A stretch of DNA of 64,000 nucleotides from Armatimonadetes bacterium 55-13. Lineage in GTDB: Bacteria > Armatimonadota > Fimbriimonadia > Fimbriimonadales > Fimbriimonadaceae. A program made the translations under genes and the position numbers. Positions 37,754 to 44,864 of the stretch are shown here, piece by piece. The stretch covers positions 638,150 to 702,149 of the forward strand of contig MKRX01000006.1 in the NCBI GenBank assembly GCA_001898035.1. The letters are read 5' to 3'. Position 1 is the stretch's first letter, and every line of letters starts with the position of its first letter. The notes below the pieces were generated by a model. It saw only the letters and a list, made by a program, of their open reading frames with translations, did not search any database and had not been told where the DNA came from.

Positions 37754-37787
37754 GCCCGCGACTTTGACTCCCGCGGGCATTTTTTTG
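37754..37787 (+). terminator. Rho-independent terminator of the shrunken copy
   Basis: A 7-bp GCCCGCG/CGCGGGC stem (37754-37760 with 37772-37778) is followed by a run of T. Its sequence parallels the terminator at 37391-37420. Confidence 0.85.
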
Positions 37788-37815: not shown

Positions 37816-37839
37816 TTATGTAGACAATATTCTACATAA
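37816..37839. promoter_or_regulatory. 24-bp palindromic operator before the mutagenesis cassette
   Basis: Perfect 9-base arms TTATGTAGA and TCTACATAA flank 6 bases, 33 bases before the ATG at 37872. Size and position suit a repressor such as LexA controlling the three genes that follow. Which protein binds is inferred; no LexA gene is in the window. Confidence 0.6.
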
Positions 37840-37871
37840 ATTGCCCTCTGGGCTTACTTCGAGGACCTTTC

Positions 37872-38396
37872 ATGAAGCGCGGCTATGCCCCTATTCAATA
37901 CTCTTTACTCTCGCCTGACGAGGCGCCTTTGATGTTCGGTGTACATCATCACCGAGCCACCCAGGATCACTTCGACCTACGGCTGGAATGTGGCTCCTTC
38001 GCCCATAGTTGGGTCCTTCCCGAAGGCCCCAGCCTATACCCAAAGCATGTCCGCGAAGCCATTCGGGTGAAAGACCACGCGAAGAAGTGCCTTGGGACCG
38101 AGGGACGCATTCCAACGGGCTTCCGAGGGGCAGGTCCGATCTTGCTTTGGGACAAGGGGACCTATCTTCCCTCTCTGGCCAGCAATAGCTCGCCAGAAGA
38201 ATCAATTGAACTAGGTCTGCAGCAGGGATGCCTTCACCTCACTTTTCGGGGGGAAAAGCTCCTGGGAGCGTGGCTGTTGGTACGGAGGCGGACCGGGTGG
38301 TTGTTTCAGAAACTACGGGACGCACACGCCTCCGATCTTGATGTTCTGCGGTTAGATCGATCGGTATTGACCGGGAGGCAGATCGGCGATCTATGA
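37872..38396 (+). CDS. Stand-alone DNA ligase D-type 3'-phosphoesterase domain protein
   Basis: 174 aa matching the 3'-phosphoesterase (PE) domain of bacterial LigD, which removes 3'-phosphates and 3'-ribonucleotides from damaged DNA ends. HHHRATQDHFDLRLE carries His27, His33, Asp35 and Arg37, equivalent to His42, His48, Asp50 and Arg52 of Pseudomonas LigD. VKDHAK gives His69 (His84). The Tyr88 position is Cys73 here. WVLPEGPSLYP and GAGPILLWDKGTY also match. No polymerase or ligase domain is attached. It overlaps the next gene by four bases and sits downstream of a palindrome, so it is the first gene of a likely damage-inducible operon. Confidence 0.85.
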   Translation: MKRGYAPIQYSLLSPDEAPLMFGVHHHRATQDHFDLRLECGSFAHSWVLPEGPSLYPKHVREAIRVKDHAKKCLGTEGRIPTGFRGAGPILLWDKGTYLPSLASNSSPEESIELGLQQGCLHLTFRGEKLLGAWLLVRRRTGWLFQKLRDAHASDLDVLRLDRSVLTGRQIGDL

Positions 38397-39568
38397 GACG
38401 TCACATCCTCTTTGTTGCCCTTGACCGATTCTATGTTCGTGAGCAAGAGCGTCGTACTCCGGCCTTGCGTAAAGAGCCGCTGGTGATCTCTCGCGATAAG
38501 CAGGTCTTCGACGCGAATGTTGAAGCGCGTAAGCTTGGGGTGTTTCGCGGACTTCCCCTAGAGCGTGCTCGTTTGCTCATGGGCTCCACAGGGACGATAC
38601 TTCCGTGGAAGGCGGAAGACTACTCAGAATTGCAGACCCGCTGGTTGGACCTCTGCGTGGAGCATAGCGGGGCAGTTGAACCAGAGGATCAGCATGCCGC
38701 TTACCTCGACCTGTCTGCCCACCCCGATCCTTTGTTTGTAACCCAGGCGGTCATCGATCGTTTGAGCGCAGCATTAAAGCATGCAATTCGTTACGGGGTC
38801 GGTCCCGTTCGATGGATTGCCAAGACCGCGGCCTTGGTGGAAGGCGCCTCCTTGCGGTCCTTCTGCGTCGATGATTTCGCCGAGCTGAAGGTCGAACTCC
38901 TCGCCCCGGTTTCTGAGGCGGATCGGCAGCGCCTGCACTTTCTGGGTTACCGGAAGATTGGCGATGTTTCGCGACTACCGCTTTCGATCTTGACTCGGCA
39001 GTTCGGTAAAGAAGGTCAACGTATCTACGATGCGGTGAATGAGAGTCTTTTTGATCCCGTTCGCCCGAGCTATCCCCCCGATTCGCTTGTCGAGAGAATG
39101 ATCTTTGAAAGTGCGATGGAGGAACTTGAGCCACTACAATCCGCCTTGATCGAGATGGCTCAGCGGCTCTCGCAAAGACTTCAAGAGCGTCAAGCACAGG
39201 CGACGGAGGTAATCGGGGAGGTCGTTTGGGAAACGGATCAGAAGGAGAGCTTCTCGCGTCGTTTCACGAAGCCCCTCCGCTGCCCTCGCTCCACAACCGC
39301 CGCGTTAGGACTGCTCTTTACTCACGTATTCTCCCAGCCCGTCAAAGCGATCGGCGTAAGATTGCCGAAGTTAGAACCGGTGCGATCCGTACAAGGCGAA
39401 TTGATCTTGAACGGTAAGGAGAATCTGCGCGTGCCGCGGCTCGATTCCGCCTTAGCTCGAGTTCACGCGACCTTTGGGGAGAATTCTGTCCTAGCGGCGA
39501 GCAAGATCGTTCTCCCGAGACGCGAAAGACTGCTCAAGGAATGGCGGCGTGCCACCGGCTGGAATTGA
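38393..39568 (+). CDS. imuB: ImuB-like Y-family polymerase homologue without catalytic residues
   Basis: 391 aa. The fold follows Y-family polymerases (ILFVALDRFYVREQE, then palm, GPVRWIAKTAALV, HhH-like LHFLGYRKIGDVSRLP, little-finger). The three metal ligands of the active enzyme are altered: Dpo4 Asp7 corresponds to Ala9, and Asp105-Glu106 to His101-Ala102 (sequence HAAYLD instead of DEAYLD). Loss of these residues is typical of ImuB, an accessory scaffold of the DnaE2 mutasome. The C-terminus ends abruptly at ATGWN without the usual tail, and a likely tail sequence is found at the start of dnaE2. It is coupled to both neighbours. Confidence 0.82.
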   Translation: MRRHILFVALDRFYVREQERRTPALRKEPLVISRDKQVFDANVEARKLGVFRGLPLERARLLMGSTGTILPWKAEDYSELQTRWLDLCVEHSGAVEPEDQHAAYLDLSAHPDPLFVTQAVIDRLSAALKHAIRYGVGPVRWIAKTAALVEGASLRSFCVDDFAELKVELLAPVSEADRQRLHFLGYRKIGDVSRLPLSILTRQFGKEGQRIYDAVNESLFDPVRPSYPPDSLVERMIFESAMEELEPLQSALIEMAQRLSQRLQERQAQATEVIGEVVWETDQKESFSRRFTKPLRCPRSTTAALGLLFTHVFSQPVKAIGVRLPKLEPVRSVQGELILNGKENLRVPRLDSALARVHATFGENSVLAASKIVLPRRERLLKEWRRATGWN

Positions 39569-42500
39569 GCATCTCGCTCGCTGGCGCGAGGTAGGAGAAT
39601 GGTGGCAAGAGGCACCGCCGTTAGAATGGGTGCGCTATTTGGACGCCGATGGTGTCAGACGAGAACGCTCGCGGACTCTGCCCATTCCTCTCACACCGGC
39701 AGAGATCACGCTCACTCCCGCTGATCCTCGCGACGACTATAGCGTTCGCCTGCACAAGACCCGAGACGAGAAGGTTGCGAAGGCGTGTGGAGCTATTCAC
39801 GATCATCATTTGAAAGTCCTAACGCCCCAGGTTAGGCGAGCCGCTTGTTTGTTTGTTCAGACAGGCTATTCCTTTGGGCGCAGCACCTTGCTCGCCACAG
39901 AGGCGCCGGGGTTTGTGGGGAACCGAGGGTTCTCTGCCGCTCTCATTGCCGATCGTTTCTCGTTGGCTGGAGCGAGGGAGTTTTCGAATACTGCTAACCG
40001 CGTCGGTCTACACCCTCTTATTGGAGCAACGATTGAGATCGCTGAAGGTGGCGAGATTGTTCTGGTGGCCCGCAATGCCGAGGGCTATCGCTCGCTCAGT
40101 CGTTTGATTACTGAATGTCACCTCGGGGAGCCTCGAAACTATCCGCTGGCTCACTGGAGCCGGATCGAGAAACACTCAGAAGGCTTGCTGCTGCTTACGG
40201 GGGGCAATGCGGGCCCGATTAATCGTCTTCTTGTTCGCCGGGAAGAAGAAACGGCCGAGAAACTCCTTCGACGCTTCATCACGCTGTACGGTTCTAAGAA
40301 CGTTTTTGTCCAGATTGAGCGCACCTACATGCCTTGGGAGATCACGGTCAACCGAAGGCTGCATGACCTTGCAGAACGATACTCGCTCTTGCCGGTAGCA
40401 GGAAACCCTATTACTCACCTAGAACCCGGTAGCTTCCCCGCGCAGGACATTCTGGTTTGCGTCGAATCTCTGTGTCTCATTGAAGAGATTGAGGGGCGAA
40501 AGCCTCGACGTGCCGAAGGACAGCCGGAGGTTGTTTTGCCACCTCGACGAGCGCTCAATGCTGAACGATACATGCGTTCAGTGAAACAGTTGGAACAGTT
40601 GTTTAAAGACCTGCCTCACCTTGTCACCAACACCTTGGCGCTTGCGGATCGGTGCGAACGCGACATTCTGCCCGGCATGATTGATCTGCCTTCGCTCGGG
40701 ATCTGCGACGAAAGCGCTTTGACGGAAGCGGTCTACCGGGGAGCGCAAGAAAGATATAAGACGATCAATCATTCCCAGCATCAGCGGCTCAGAGAGGAAC
40801 TCGATCGGATCATCGGTCAGAAGTTTGCCCGCCACTTCTTAGTGGCCGCCGATATGTGTCAGTGGGCGCGGGAGCATGGGATTTTGTTTAGTGGGCGTGG
40901 ATCGGTGGTCGATTCGATGGTGGCTTATTGTCTCGGTTTTTCCCGAATCGACGCCCACGAGCATAACCTTCACTTCAATCGATTCCTCCCCGAAGATGCC
41001 AGCAAACGCCCTGACATCGATATCGACTTTGAAGCTTCGCGTCGCAACGAAGTTCGGCAATACCTGGTTCGCAAGTACGGCGAAAAGCACGTCGCTACCG
41101 TCGCCGCCTTCGGGGCTTATCGGACGCGAGGGATTATCCGTGATGTGGGAAAGGTGTTGGGGATTCCTCCAGAATCGCTGAGTTATCTGAGTAAGCGCTT
41201 GCATGGCAGCGTCACTCCCGAGCGTCTGCGCGAGTGCATTGAAAACAAGCCTGAACTCCGCGACAGTGGGATTCCCGTTCGGCGTTTCGAGTGGGTGTTT
41301 CGGTTGGCCAAGATGCTGATGGATGTGCCTATGGGGGTACGCGCTCACTCGTCTGGGGTCGTGATCTCCCAGGAACCAATCTGCGACATCGTGCCAGTGA
41401 TGCTCTCCGGTGATGAGGACGTGCAGATCATTCAGTGGGACAAGCGAAGCGCCCGAGCGAGTTTCGATAAGTTCGACGTGCTCTGCTTGAGGGGGAACGA
41501 TGTTCTCTCGCGAACCCAAGATCGCGTTCGTCACTTGGACTATAACTTCGACGTTGAACAGGTTGCCCTGGACGATCCAGAGACCTATCGGACGATGCGA
41601 AGTGGTCACTTGATCGGCATTCCCCAATCTGCCTCACCGGCGATGCGACAGGCTCATATTCGAATGCGGACTCAGAACCTCACCGACGCCAGCTTGGTTC
41701 AGGCAGGCATCCGTCCGGGGGTGGGAGGAGCCGTGAAGATCAATGAATTGATCGCCAGAAGGCGTGGGAAGCCTTACGAGATTTATCACCCGGAGATGGA
41801 TCGTATCTTGGGCAACACCTACGGGCTGATCGTCTTTCAGGAACAGGTCGATCAGTTGCTGGAGACCTTTGCCGGCTACTCAGCAAACCAGGCAGAGGTG
41901 ATGCGTGAGGCGATTCATGAGCGCCGTCGCGAAATGTATGTGGAGACGCTGAAGGAAGAGGTCATTCAGCGCATCGTGACCAATGGTTTCAGCCGGGAGA
42001 TTGCCGTGCAGGTGTGCGAACTGGTAGCCGGGTTCAAAGGTTACGGATTTGCCCAGGGTCATGCCTTGGCGTTTGCCGAAGTCTCTGTTCGCTCAATCTG
42101 GTGCCAACAGAACTTCCCCACGCAGTATTTTGCCGCCCTCCTCGATTCGCAGCCAGCAGGCTACTATGGCCCTTGCACCATCGCGAACGAAGCCCGTTCC
42201 CGTGGGGTGCTTCTCCTGCATCCAGACGTCAATCGCAGTGAATTGAACTTCGTTGTGGAGGATATGGATGAGGCGGCAATGCCTGATGTTCCTCATGGCG
42301 GCATTCGAGTTGCGCTTCAGCAGATCAGCGCCGTGGCCAAAGACACTCTGCTACGCACCTTGAATCAGCGGATTGAACGTCCTTATCGTTCCTTTTTCGA
42401 TTTCATCGCGCGCGTACGGCCTAATCGAGACGAGTTGGAGCAGTTCATCTTGGCGGGAGCGTTTGACTCGATGCACCCCAATCGTCGTGCGCTCCTATGG

Positions 42501-43064
42501 GCGATTCCTTCCGCTTACGAGTTTGCAGAGCTGGTTCGCAAGAATGGCGACGCCTTGGACATCTCTTGGGAAGAGCCTTCTCTGCCAACTAACGTGGAAG
42601 ATTTTGATATCGTTGAGAAGGCAATCCGCGAACGCTATGTTCTCGATCTCGATATCGAAAGGCACCTCATGGCCTTCGAAAGAGAGCGGGTGGCAGCGAA
42701 AGGAGTGATCACGACTCGAGAAGCTACGCAACTTGCCCCCGGAACAAAAGCGTTTGTCGTCGGTAATCCCATCCGCCTCCGCTTCCCTCCCACCTCAAGT
42801 GGGAAACGCGTGATGTTCTTTGACCTGGAGGATGAAACCGGGCTCTTGAACGTGACTTGCTTTGATGACGTTTACCAACGATACGGACATGCCATCATCT
42901 GCTCCCCCTACATCACCCTGTATGGCGAGGCGCAGGATCGTGACGGGCACATCGCGTTTCTTACCGAGAGGGTCTATAACTACCAGCCCCGGTTTGGAGA
43001 TGCGCGTAAGGAAGTGGACGTGCGAGAATTGCCAATTACAACGGCTGATTTCTTGGTGAGTTAG
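39549..43064 (+). CDS. dnaE2: Error-prone DNA polymerase III alpha subunit (DnaE2 type)
   Basis: 1171 aa from GTG 39549, with AAGGA 8 bases upstream, overlapping imuB by 20 bases. Polymerase Asp residues lie in RPDIDIDF (D489, D491, D493). KFDVL supplies the third Asp, and the family segments FSGRGSVVDSMVAYCLG, FQEQVDQLLETFAGYS and GYGFAQGHALAFAEVS are present. An OB-fold is near the end. The PHP domain starts near residue 97 as CLFVQTGYSFG and has lost its metal-binding His, and IADRFSLAG has Arg for His. The first ~95 residues are extra compared with usual DnaE2 (about 1050 aa). Expected role: lesion bypass and induced mutagenesis with ImuB. Confidence 0.92.
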   Translation: MPPAGIEHLARWREVGEWWQEAPPLEWVRYLDADGVRRERSRTLPIPLTPAEITLTPADPRDDYSVRLHKTRDEKVAKACGAIHDHHLKVLTPQVRRAACLFVQTGYSFGRSTLLATEAPGFVGNRGFSAALIADRFSLAGAREFSNTANRVGLHPLIGATIEIAEGGEIVLVARNAEGYRSLSRLITECHLGEPRNYPLAHWSRIEKHSEGLLLLTGGNAGPINRLLVRREEETAEKLLRRFITLYGSKNVFVQIERTYMPWEITVNRRLHDLAERYSLLPVAGNPITHLEPGSFPAQDILVCVESLCLIEEIEGRKPRRAEGQPEVVLPPRRALNAERYMRSVKQLEQLFKDLPHLVTNTLALADRCERDILPGMIDLPSLGICDESALTEAVYRGAQERYKTINHSQHQRLREELDRIIGQKFARHFLVAADMCQWAREHGILFSGRGSVVDSMVAYCLGFSRIDAHEHNLHFNRFLPEDASKRPDIDIDFEASRRNEVRQYLVRKYGEKHVATVAAFGAYRTRGIIRDVGKVLGIPPESLSYLSKRLHGSVTPERLRECIENKPELRDSGIPVRRFEWVFRLAKMLMDVPMGVRAHSSGVVISQEPICDIVPVMLSGDEDVQIIQWDKRSARASFDKFDVLCLRGNDVLSRTQDRVRHLDYNFDVEQVALDDPETYRTMRSGHLIGIPQSASPAMRQAHIRMRTQNLTDASLVQAGIRPGVGGAVKINELIARRRGKPYEIYHPEMDRILGNTYGLIVFQEQVDQLLETFAGYSANQAEVMREAIHERRREMYVETLKEEVIQRIVTNGFSREIAVQVCELVAGFKGYGFAQGHALAFAEVSVRSIWCQQNFPTQYFAALLDSQPAGYYGPCTIANEARSRGVLLLHPDVNRSELNFVVEDMDEAAMPDVPHGGIRVALQQISAVAKDTLLRTLNQRIERPYRSFFDFIARVRPNRDELEQFILAGAFDSMHPNRRALLWAIPSAYEFAELVRKNGDALDISWEEPSLPTNVEDFDIVEKAIRERYVLDLDIERHLMAFERERVAAKGVITTREATQLAPGTKAFVVGNPIRLRFPPTSSGKRVMFFDLEDETGLLNVTCFDDVYQRYGHAIICSPYITLYGEAQDRDGHIAFLTERVYNYQPRFGDARKEVDVRELPITTADFLVS

Positions 43065-43088
43065 CCCCTGCCTAAAAGGCAGGGGCTT
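43063..43088. terminator. Bidirectional terminator between dnaE2 and pruA
   Basis: An 11-bp perfect stem (43063-43073 with 43077-43087) with an AAA loop includes the dnaE2 stop codon. The convergent aldehyde dehydrogenase ends 13 bases further. Confidence 0.8.
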
Positions 43089-43100
43089 AGAATGAATCGC

Positions 43101-44729
43101 TTACTCGCTGGCGAGGAAGGGATAGCGGTAGTCGGTGGGAGGAACGAAGGTTTCCTTGATGGTGCGGGCGCTGAGCCAGCGATAGAGGTTCAGGATGGAA
43201 CCCGCCTTATCGTTGGTGCCGCTCGCGCGGGCTCCGCCGAAGGGTTGCTGGCCGACAACGGCGCCGGTCGGCTTGTCGTTGATGTAGAAGTTGCCTGCGC
43301 AGTTTCGAAGCTTGTTCGTGGCCAATTCCACCGCGTACCGATCTTGGGAGATCACCGCGCCGGTGAGGGCGTAGGGGGAGGTCTCGTCGATCAGTTCCAG
43401 GGTCTCCTCGAACTTGTTCTCATCGTAGACGTAGATCGTCAAGACCGGGCCAAAGATCTCTTCGCACATGGTGGTGTACTTGGGATCGTTGGCTTCGATG
43501 ATCGTGGGCTGAATGAAGTAGCCCTGCGATTTGTCATAAGTGCCGCCAACCAAAATCTTCTGACCGTCGGCTTTGGCCTTATCGATGTAGCCCGCGATCT
43601 TATCGAAGCTTCGCTCGTCGATGACCGCGTTGATGAAGTTGCCGAAGTCCTCAACGGTGCCGACCTTGAACGACTGAACACCCTGAATCAGCTTGCGCTT
43701 GACCTCGTCGGCGATGTTGCTCGGGATGTAGGCGCGGGAGGCGGCGGAGCACTTTTGGCCTTGATACTCGAAGGCGCCGCGGAGGAGGGCGGTGGCGACG
43801 ACGTCGCTATCGGCGCTCTTGTGAGCGACGACGAAGTCCTTGCCGCCGGTCTCACCGACGATTCGGGGGTAGGCGCGGTAGTTGCCGATGTTCTCGCCGA
43901 TGGTCTTCCACATTTGGTTGAAGACGCCGGTGGAGCCGGTGAAGTGGACACCAGCGAAATCTGGGTGCTTGAAGCAGACTTCGCCCAAGGTCGGGCCGTC
44001 TACGTAGACGAGGTTGATGACGCCTTCGGGAAGTCCGGCTTCGATCATGATGCGCATGAACATTTGGGCGCTATAGACTTCCGTGTTGGCGGGCTTCCAG
44101 ACCACGACGTTTCCGCACATGGCGGCGGAGGTGGGGAGGTTGCCGGCGATGGCGGTGAAGTTGAAGGGGGTGACGGCGAGGACGAAACCTTCGAGCGCTC
44201 GGTATTCCAGGCGGTTGTGCATGCCGGGGCTGCTGATGGGTTGCTGGCGGTAGATCTCGCTGAGGAAGTGGACGTTGAAGCGGAGGAAGTCCACGATCTC
44301 ACAAGCGCTATCGATCTCGGCTTGGAACGCGTTCTTGCTTTGGCCGAGCATCGTGGTGCCGTTAAGGTACGGGCGGTACTTGGTGGCGATGAGGTCGGCG
44401 GCGCGAAGGAAGATGTTGGCGCGGTTCTCCCAACTCGTGTTGGCCCAGGCCTCTTTGGCTTCTAGAGCAGCTTCGATGGCTTGGTTGACGTGGCTGGCAT
44501 CGCCCATGTGGAAATGGCCGAGGGTGTGGGCGATTTCGTGAGGGGGGTGCATGGAAACGAGGTTGCCAGTACGGACTTCTTGGCCGCCGATGTACATCGG
44601 GACATCGATCTGTTCGGCCTTCAGCTCACTGAGAGCGCTTTTGAGGGCGGCTCTTTCCTTGGTGCCGGGGGCATAGGTCAGTACGGGCTCGTTTGCGGGT
44701 GAAGGGTAATTGAAGTAACCGCGGTCCAT
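43101..44729 (-). CDS. pruA: L-glutamate gamma-semialdehyde dehydrogenase (1-pyrroline-5-carboxylate dehydrogenase)
   Basis: 542 aa from the ATG at 44729; an upstream extension exists but lacks similarity. This NAD-dependent enzyme of proline breakdown makes glutamate. It resembles the longer ALDH4A1-type form: ITPFNFTAIAGNLPTSAAMCGN, GVHFTGSTGVFNQMW, the active-site region ETGGKDFVVAHKSAD with Glu, and FEYQGQKCSAASRAY with catalytic Cys. C-terminal QPFGGARASGTNDKAGS is the usual pruA end. No proline dehydrogenase gene is adjacent. It is divergent from the sugar importer. Confidence 0.94.
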   Translation of the reverse strand: MDRGYFNYPSPANEPVLTYAPGTKERAALKSALSELKAEQIDVPMYIGGQEVRTGNLVSMHPPHEIAHTLGHFHMGDASHVNQAIEAALEAKEAWANTSWENRANIFLRAADLIATKYRPYLNGTTMLGQSKNAFQAEIDSACEIVDFLRFNVHFLSEIYRQQPISSPGMHNRLEYRALEGFVLAVTPFNFTAIAGNLPTSAAMCGNVVVWKPANTEVYSAQMFMRIMIEAGLPEGVINLVYVDGPTLGEVCFKHPDFAGVHFTGSTGVFNQMWKTIGENIGNYRAYPRIVGETGGKDFVVAHKSADSDVVATALLRGAFEYQGQKCSAASRAYIPSNIADEVKRKLIQGVQSFKVGTVEDFGNFINAVIDERSFDKIAGYIDKAKADGQKILVGGTYDKSQGYFIQPTIIEANDPKYTTMCEEIFGPVLTIYVYDENKFEETLELIDETSPYALTGAVISQDRYAVELATNKLRNCAGNFYINDKPTGAVVGQQPFGGARASGTNDKAGSILNLYRWLSARTIKETFVPPTDYRYPFLASE

Positions 44730-44807
44730 TATGAAGAGAAGTGTACCGAGGCGGGGGAAAAGGGTTCGTGACCGGGTGGGTTTTGCAGTAATCTTGTGGC
44801 ATCGGTT

Positions 44808-44843
44808 GGATACCCTATGATCAACCGGATACCCCATGATCAA
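44808..44843. promoter_or_regulatory. Tandem direct repeat in the pruA/sugar-importer intergenic region
   Basis: GGATACCCTATGATCAA (44808-44824) and GGATACCCCATGATCAA (44827-44843) differ at one base and are spaced 19 bases apart. They lie 22-57 bases before the ATG at 44865, a good place for a regulator's paired binding sites. Confidence 0.5.
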
Positions 44844-44864
44844 AAAAAGAGCCATCAACGACAG

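Follow-up and report, generated by a model that had tools for sequence, protein, structure and literature searches.

The 64-kb window of Armatimonadetes bacterium 55-13 analyzed here (the window being the whole stretch, in whose positions coordinates are given unless a contig or locus is named) contains a three-gene locus, 37872-43064, encoded entirely on the + strand. Its first gene (37872..38396, 174 aa; PF13298, E 3.5e-27) encodes a stand-alone LigD-type phosphoesterase (PE) with an altered active site. The second (38393..39568, 391 aa; IMS, E 1.1e-13, and IMS_C) encodes a Y-family polymerase that appears inactive and lacks an ImuB-C domain, and the third (39549..43064, 1171 aa; DNA_pol3_alpha, E 5.7e-65) a DnaE2-type C-family polymerase. 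These domain matches and coordinates agree with an earlier note on this DNA, which had described three genes with 4-base and 20-base overlaps behind a palindromic site. The shorter overlap (ATGA) joins the PE gene to the Y-family gene. The longer one, between the Y-family gene and dnaE2, recurs in relatives L045, L048, L050, and L058, and the dnaE2 start is therefore considered sound.

Upstream of the PE gene lies a perfect palindrome, TTATGTAGA-CAATAT-TCTACATAA (37816..37839, no strand), predicted to be an SOS (LexA) box. It is preceded by an intrinsic-terminator-like hairpin on the + strand (37754..37787), an 8-base inverted repeat with one mismatch and a gap of 9, followed by seven T, that would insulate the operon from upstream transcription. 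The overlaps and this insulation suggest that PE, the Y-family protein, and DnaE2 are made from one mRNA; a sigma-70 promoter scan returned none at the operon start.

The Y-family protein and DnaE2

The catalytic acids of both Y-family motifs are replaced in the second gene product (VALDRF; DQHAA for SLDEA), in agreement with the catalytic alteration that the earlier note had reported. In its relatives, the acids are likewise lost at the second motif and mostly also at the first. The name ImuB given to it there was right in denoting an inactivated Y-family protein, but the C-terminal ImuB-C domain is absent, and inactive PolY (iPolY) is the more fitting name. The last residue of the protein is 391, just past a motif at about residues 349-372 (39437..39508, + strand; LDSALARVHATFGENSVLAASK) that resembles the N-terminus of RecA (RecA-NT; RALQMALGQIEKAFGKGAIMRMG in the genome's own RecA). 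This motif is conserved in 15 family members, its FG is invariant in the family, and none of 150 permutations matched the RecA N-terminus as well in hhalign comparisons. An iPolY relative was found in 199 of the 291 genomes of the phylum. In genome G121, an iPolY remnant with four in-frame stops was observed (C1:29387-29932); this genome retains a PE gene with an SOS box and has no DnaE2.

The reported absence of ImuA was confirmed across the whole genome, in which the RecA (PF00154) and ImuA (NF033429) models match only recA (C15:350851), the NF033429 match falling at the same place as recA. NF033429 matches in 95 genomes were likewise rejected as ImuA, being recA-like in appearance (one per genome, in RecA-sized frames). 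In the family loci inspected, dnaE2 directly follows iPolY with no imuA, and throughout the family the pair normally occurs without ImuA, whether PE is present or not. Published examples exist of modules that lack ImuA and in which RecA can take its place by way of a RecA-NT motif (PMC6511836, PMC12926913, PMC8072749). Because iPolY lacks ImuB-C and carries a RecA-NT-like motif, as in those modules, RecA rather than PE is the most likely stand-in for ImuA.

The family's DnaE2 has an extension of ~95 residues ahead of the PHP domain. Residues 1-45 (39549..39683, + strand; WREAGEWW..EP.RE..R..D..G.RRE) match ImuB-C, Pfam DUF6504, with an hhalign probability of 93.8 and an E value of 1.8e-7, and 0 of 150 permutations did as well. 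In a Syntrophomonas locus (L126) and an Armatimonadetes locus (L187), ImuB-C is a separate gene of 91-92 aa between iPolY and dnaE2. The DnaEs of these two loci group with this family's DnaE2, with a fork support of 89 in a quick FastTree phylogeny that does not settle the choice between DnaE2X and DnaE2B. These results are suggestive, though not proof, of a shortened ImuB-C fused to the DnaE2 of this family, an arrangement of which we found no description in the literature. Within the PHP domain (39840-40000), TGYSFG and ADRFSL stand where L126 has HSPFSF and TDHNNV. The domain thus seems to have lost its metal ligands, and PHP proofreading would therefore not be expected of this DnaE2.

The predicted SOS box and its regulon

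The pattern TTATGTAGA-N6-TCTACATAA gave no matches in shuffled sequence, and the palindrome at 37816-37839 is its sole perfect copy in the 4.5-Mb genome. A degenerate form, WWDGTAGA-N6-TCTACHWW with up to two mismatches, was present in the region ahead of iPolY at 17 of 23 loci, or 16 of 22 when one genome fetched twice is counted once, against 0.0025 expected per region. Among loci fetched after the motif had been fixed, the repeat excluded, it was found in five of eight. A reversed-pattern control of the loose search out-scored the box itself, with 61 matches versus 33, and two-mismatch sites were therefore accepted only if they were nearly palindromic and preceded a gene. The zero-mismatch pattern, searched across 85 genomes, was too strict for mapping the regulon.

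In the window's genome, boxes with up to two mismatches precede genes for a Y-polymerase, uvrB, a Tag-like glycosylase, and an SPL-like radical-SAM protein, all named by eye. LexA was found in most of the family, and GTAGAC half-sites occur in 29 of 30 lexA promoters (0.04 expected in each); the promoters of lexA and recA in the window's genome have one and two half-sites, respectively. The palindrome is very probably the LexA (SOS) box of this clade, and the box, the presence of LexA, and the regulon together suggest LexA control of the operon.

Several further observations concern this motif. In many lexA promoters (e.g., L231, L252, and L240), GTAGAC/GTCTAC half-sites lie 18 bases apart, around the -10 region, compared with 4 in the usual box, which may represent a different operator layout for autoregulation. 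In G088 and G081, a 3-methyladenine (MPG-type) glycosylase gene (L051:4825-5442 and L052:7560-8177) runs divergently from the iPolY-dnaE2 operon, with a box nearby, which places a further repair gene next to the pair. In three relatives, small helix-turn-helix proteins begin no more than ~40 bases from perfect SOS boxes (L253:1512-1805, L254:964-1491, and L260:1541-1984); by eye they are sigma region 4-like, and they are possible regulators within the regulon. Small uncharacterized proteins were also seen directly behind boxes in the window's genome (L103:2572-2967) and in two relatives (L255:1119-1529 and L256:1521-1850), the latter two being alike and L103 less clearly so.

At the far end of the operon, the sequence holds a hairpin directly 3' of dnaE2 (43064..43086, + strand) that has no T-run and possibly marks the end of the transcript. 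Beyond it, a 457-aa + strand open reading frame (ORF; 43092-44465) runs antisense to a 585-aa aldehyde-dehydrogenase-like gene (43101-44858, - strand) and is probably a GC-rich shadow ORF.

A phosphoesterase lineage outside the LigD clade

The first protein of the operon matched PDB 5dmp (E 2.4e-25), and its AlphaFold model (pLDDT 87) matched solved PE structures (3n9b, E 1.2e-13) and lacked a RecA-like fold. A tree of 48 PEs placed the 40 associated with LigD or non-homologous end joining (NHEJ) in one clade (support 99/99). Eight PEs of this family, including that of the window, fell outside it; all are short stand-alone frames, and the tree leaves their monophyly unsettled. The stand-alone PE of G106 was excluded from this SOS-associated group, as it is flanked by Ku-like and ligase-like genes and its N-terminus is canonical.

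Residues were mapped onto the Pseudomonas enzyme, whose numbering is used here (PMC8656161). The manganese triad His42/His48/Asp50 is retained in the window's PE as H27, H33, and D35, and the metal ligands, along with Arg52 and His84, are kept in all eight PEs outside the LigD clade. The window's PE shares these residues and its fold with the LigD 3'-phosphoesterase domain and with stand-alone archaeal PEs (PDB 3n9b, 5dmp, and 3p4h). It differs from them in that Gln40 has become His, Glu82 Lys (K67), and Tyr88 Cys (C73), and in having lost the N-terminal segment that bears Arg14, residue 15, and Glu21; it also has an SOS box and stands outside any NHEJ operon. Among the 40 LigD/NHEJ-type PEs, Glu82 is universal and Tyr88 is missing from L019 only. 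At the Tyr88 position, the other seven PEs have Cys (G121 and G084), Leu (G083), or the original Tyr (G153, G154, G079, and G157). Tyr88 is essential in the Pseudomonas enzyme, in which 3'-phosphatase activity involves Glu82, Arg14, Arg15, and Glu21; ribonucleoside removal, by contrast, does not depend on Glu82 or the N-terminal residues (PMC8656161). The window's PE therefore likely has a changed activity. Because the residues needed for 3'-phosphatase activity are lost, the earlier proposal that it makes extendable ends from 3'-phosphates is doubtful. The designation LigD-type 3'-phosphoesterase thus needs qualifying, given the altered active site.

A canonical PE is encoded elsewhere in the genome, at a split NHEJ locus (C6:87603-90683; L070:3604-6684) where a PE-ligase (463 aa) and a Pol (291 aa) share one strand and Ku (279 aa) is convergent, the three being assigned by eye. 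With this full locus present, the PE of the operon is not expected to be the NHEJ end-healer.

An SOS box lies just upstream of six of the eight PE genes outside the LigD clade (the window, G121, G083, G153, G154, and G157) and of none of the 40 LigD/NHEJ-type genes (Fisher 2e-6); in G084 the PE is kept and no box was detected. Among the 291 phylum genomes, the gene order that the note had named, PE-imuB-dnaE2, occurs as an operon only here. The one other genome in which PE adjoins the pair is G083, where it is a divergent neighbor with one box near each gene, giving 2 of 291 genomes, or 2 of the 199 with the Y-family protein. More broadly, no PE was found within 5 kb of DnaE at any of 79 DnaE loci, about a dozen of them of this DnaE2 kind, in a scan of 84,980 species (one genome per species) made with the DnaE2 alignment, the PE alignment being too divergent for the purpose. 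Boxed PE genes are kept in G153, G121, and G157, which have DnaE1 only and no DnaE2. Within the family, the pair is lacking in four of eight PE-bearing genomes and in 7 of 77 others (p 0.009, not corrected for kinship). Because linkage is rare, boxed PE genes persist without DnaE2, and PE-bearing genomes more often lack the pair, the PE is best regarded as an independent SOS enzyme whose gene came to be co-transcribed at this locus.

A probable ImuA-less mutagenesis operon joined by PE

The iPolY-dnaE2 pair is closest to the published DnaE2-iPolY-ImuB-C-RecA (DnaE2X) and DnaE2B-iPolY-RecA modules (PMC6511836; PMC12926913), which also have an inactive PolY with a RecA-NT motif beside DnaE2. Such modules, including the Deinococcus lexA-imuY-imuB-C-dnaE2 cluster (PMC8072749), likewise lack ImuA in the genome and are under LexA control, which is predicted here. 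They differ in having no PE at the head of the operon and in that a separate ImuB-C gene is replaced here by a partial ImuB-C-like domain on the DnaE2 N-terminus. The ImuA-ImuB-DnaE2 mutasome similarly combines a dead Y-family protein with DnaE2 under SOS control, as is proposed for this locus, whereas here ImuA is missing and the Y-family protein has no ImuB-C C-terminus. The quick tree also places this DnaE apart from the DnaE2s of proteobacteria, planctomycetes, and actinobacteria, which form a large clade. An end-joining-type enzyme is also co-encoded with a mutagenic polymerase in SOS operons that unite DinB, Ku, and an ATP-dependent ligase with ImuB-C or SRAP (PMC3765255); those carry Ku and ligase, whereas here PE is alone with iPolY and DnaE2. 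As the earlier note had supposed, we found no described cassette with this PE content.

With a probability of roughly 0.7, the locus is a mutagenesis operon of the DnaE2/iPolY/RecA kind that is controlled by LexA and lacks ImuA, with a separate damage-box PE gene added at its front. Under this model, DNA damage would lead to RecA filaments, LexA self-cleavage, and release of the box, and one mRNA would then yield all three proteins. iPolY would serve as a scaffold whose RecA-NT motif engages a RecA subunit, the replacement for ImuA, and would hold DnaE2, helped by the ImuB-C-like piece fused to that polymerase, as DnaE2 copies past the lesion. PE would act in parallel, as a separate manganese-type 3'-end trimmer on damaged or ribonucleotide-blocked 3' ends, its chemistry more probably phosphodiester cleavage than 3'-phosphatase. 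Its position in the operon would provide co-induction and not an obligate joint complex. Several findings weigh against this account. The lexA and recA promoters of the window's genome have half-sites and no full box, and the RecA-NT comparison used a single RecA sequence. The Pfam DUF6504 model itself gives no score to the DnaE2 N-terminal piece, whose ImuB-C match spans 37 columns, with the C-terminal part of the domain not recognizable. Finally, PE became a neighbor of the pair twice, once in an operon and once divergently, which could mean a functional tie.

Such a tie is the substance of a rather unlikely alternative, in which PE belongs to the mutasome as a functional component, readying 3' ends for DnaE2 extension by removing ribonucleotides or blocked nucleotides. 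The overlapping genes and shared box, the boxed divergent arrangement in G083, and the intact metal triad agree with it. The rarity of linkage (2 of 199 genomes; none of the 79 DnaE loci), the survival of boxed PE genes without DnaE2, and the scarcity of the pair in PE-bearing genomes (not kinship-corrected) argue the other way. The same distribution tells against the earlier suggestion that lesion bypass is coupled to making extendable 3' ends; mechanistic coupling of PE and DnaE2 is possible but not supported. We consider it unlikely that the LexA-regulated PE lineage, with its remodeled active site, supplies a new 3'-end processing step feeding the ImuA-less DnaE2 mutasome, the two forming one inducible pathway here and in G083. 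It is improbable that PE is a degenerate NHEJ gene, in this position by accident and without any damage-tolerance role. Its lineage is long-branched, the window's copy has lost Tyr88, Glu82, and the N-terminal residues, and a complete NHEJ locus exists elsewhere in the genome; yet six of eight such genes keep boxes in diverged genomes, their frames are intact, and the manganese triad, Arg52, and His84 are invariant. Least credible, and very improbable, is the replacement of ImuA by PE as structural partner of the Y-family protein, as the earlier note had implied. ImuA is indeed absent and PE comes first in the operon, but relatives, nearly all of them lacking this PE, also do without ImuA, the RecA-NT motif points to RecA, and PE has no RecA-like fold. 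ImuA-less modules with RecA are known and ImuA is absent family-wide, so its absence needs no PE to explain it.

For ImuA-less mutasomes, an operon of this kind would represent a new layout, with an ImuB-C piece moved onto DnaE2. It also provides this phylum with a sequence-supported LexA box, none having been found described in the literature, and points to a PE lineage outside NHEJ that appears to belong to the SOS response. Should PE act with DnaE2, 3'-end repair would be linked to mutagenic lesion bypass.

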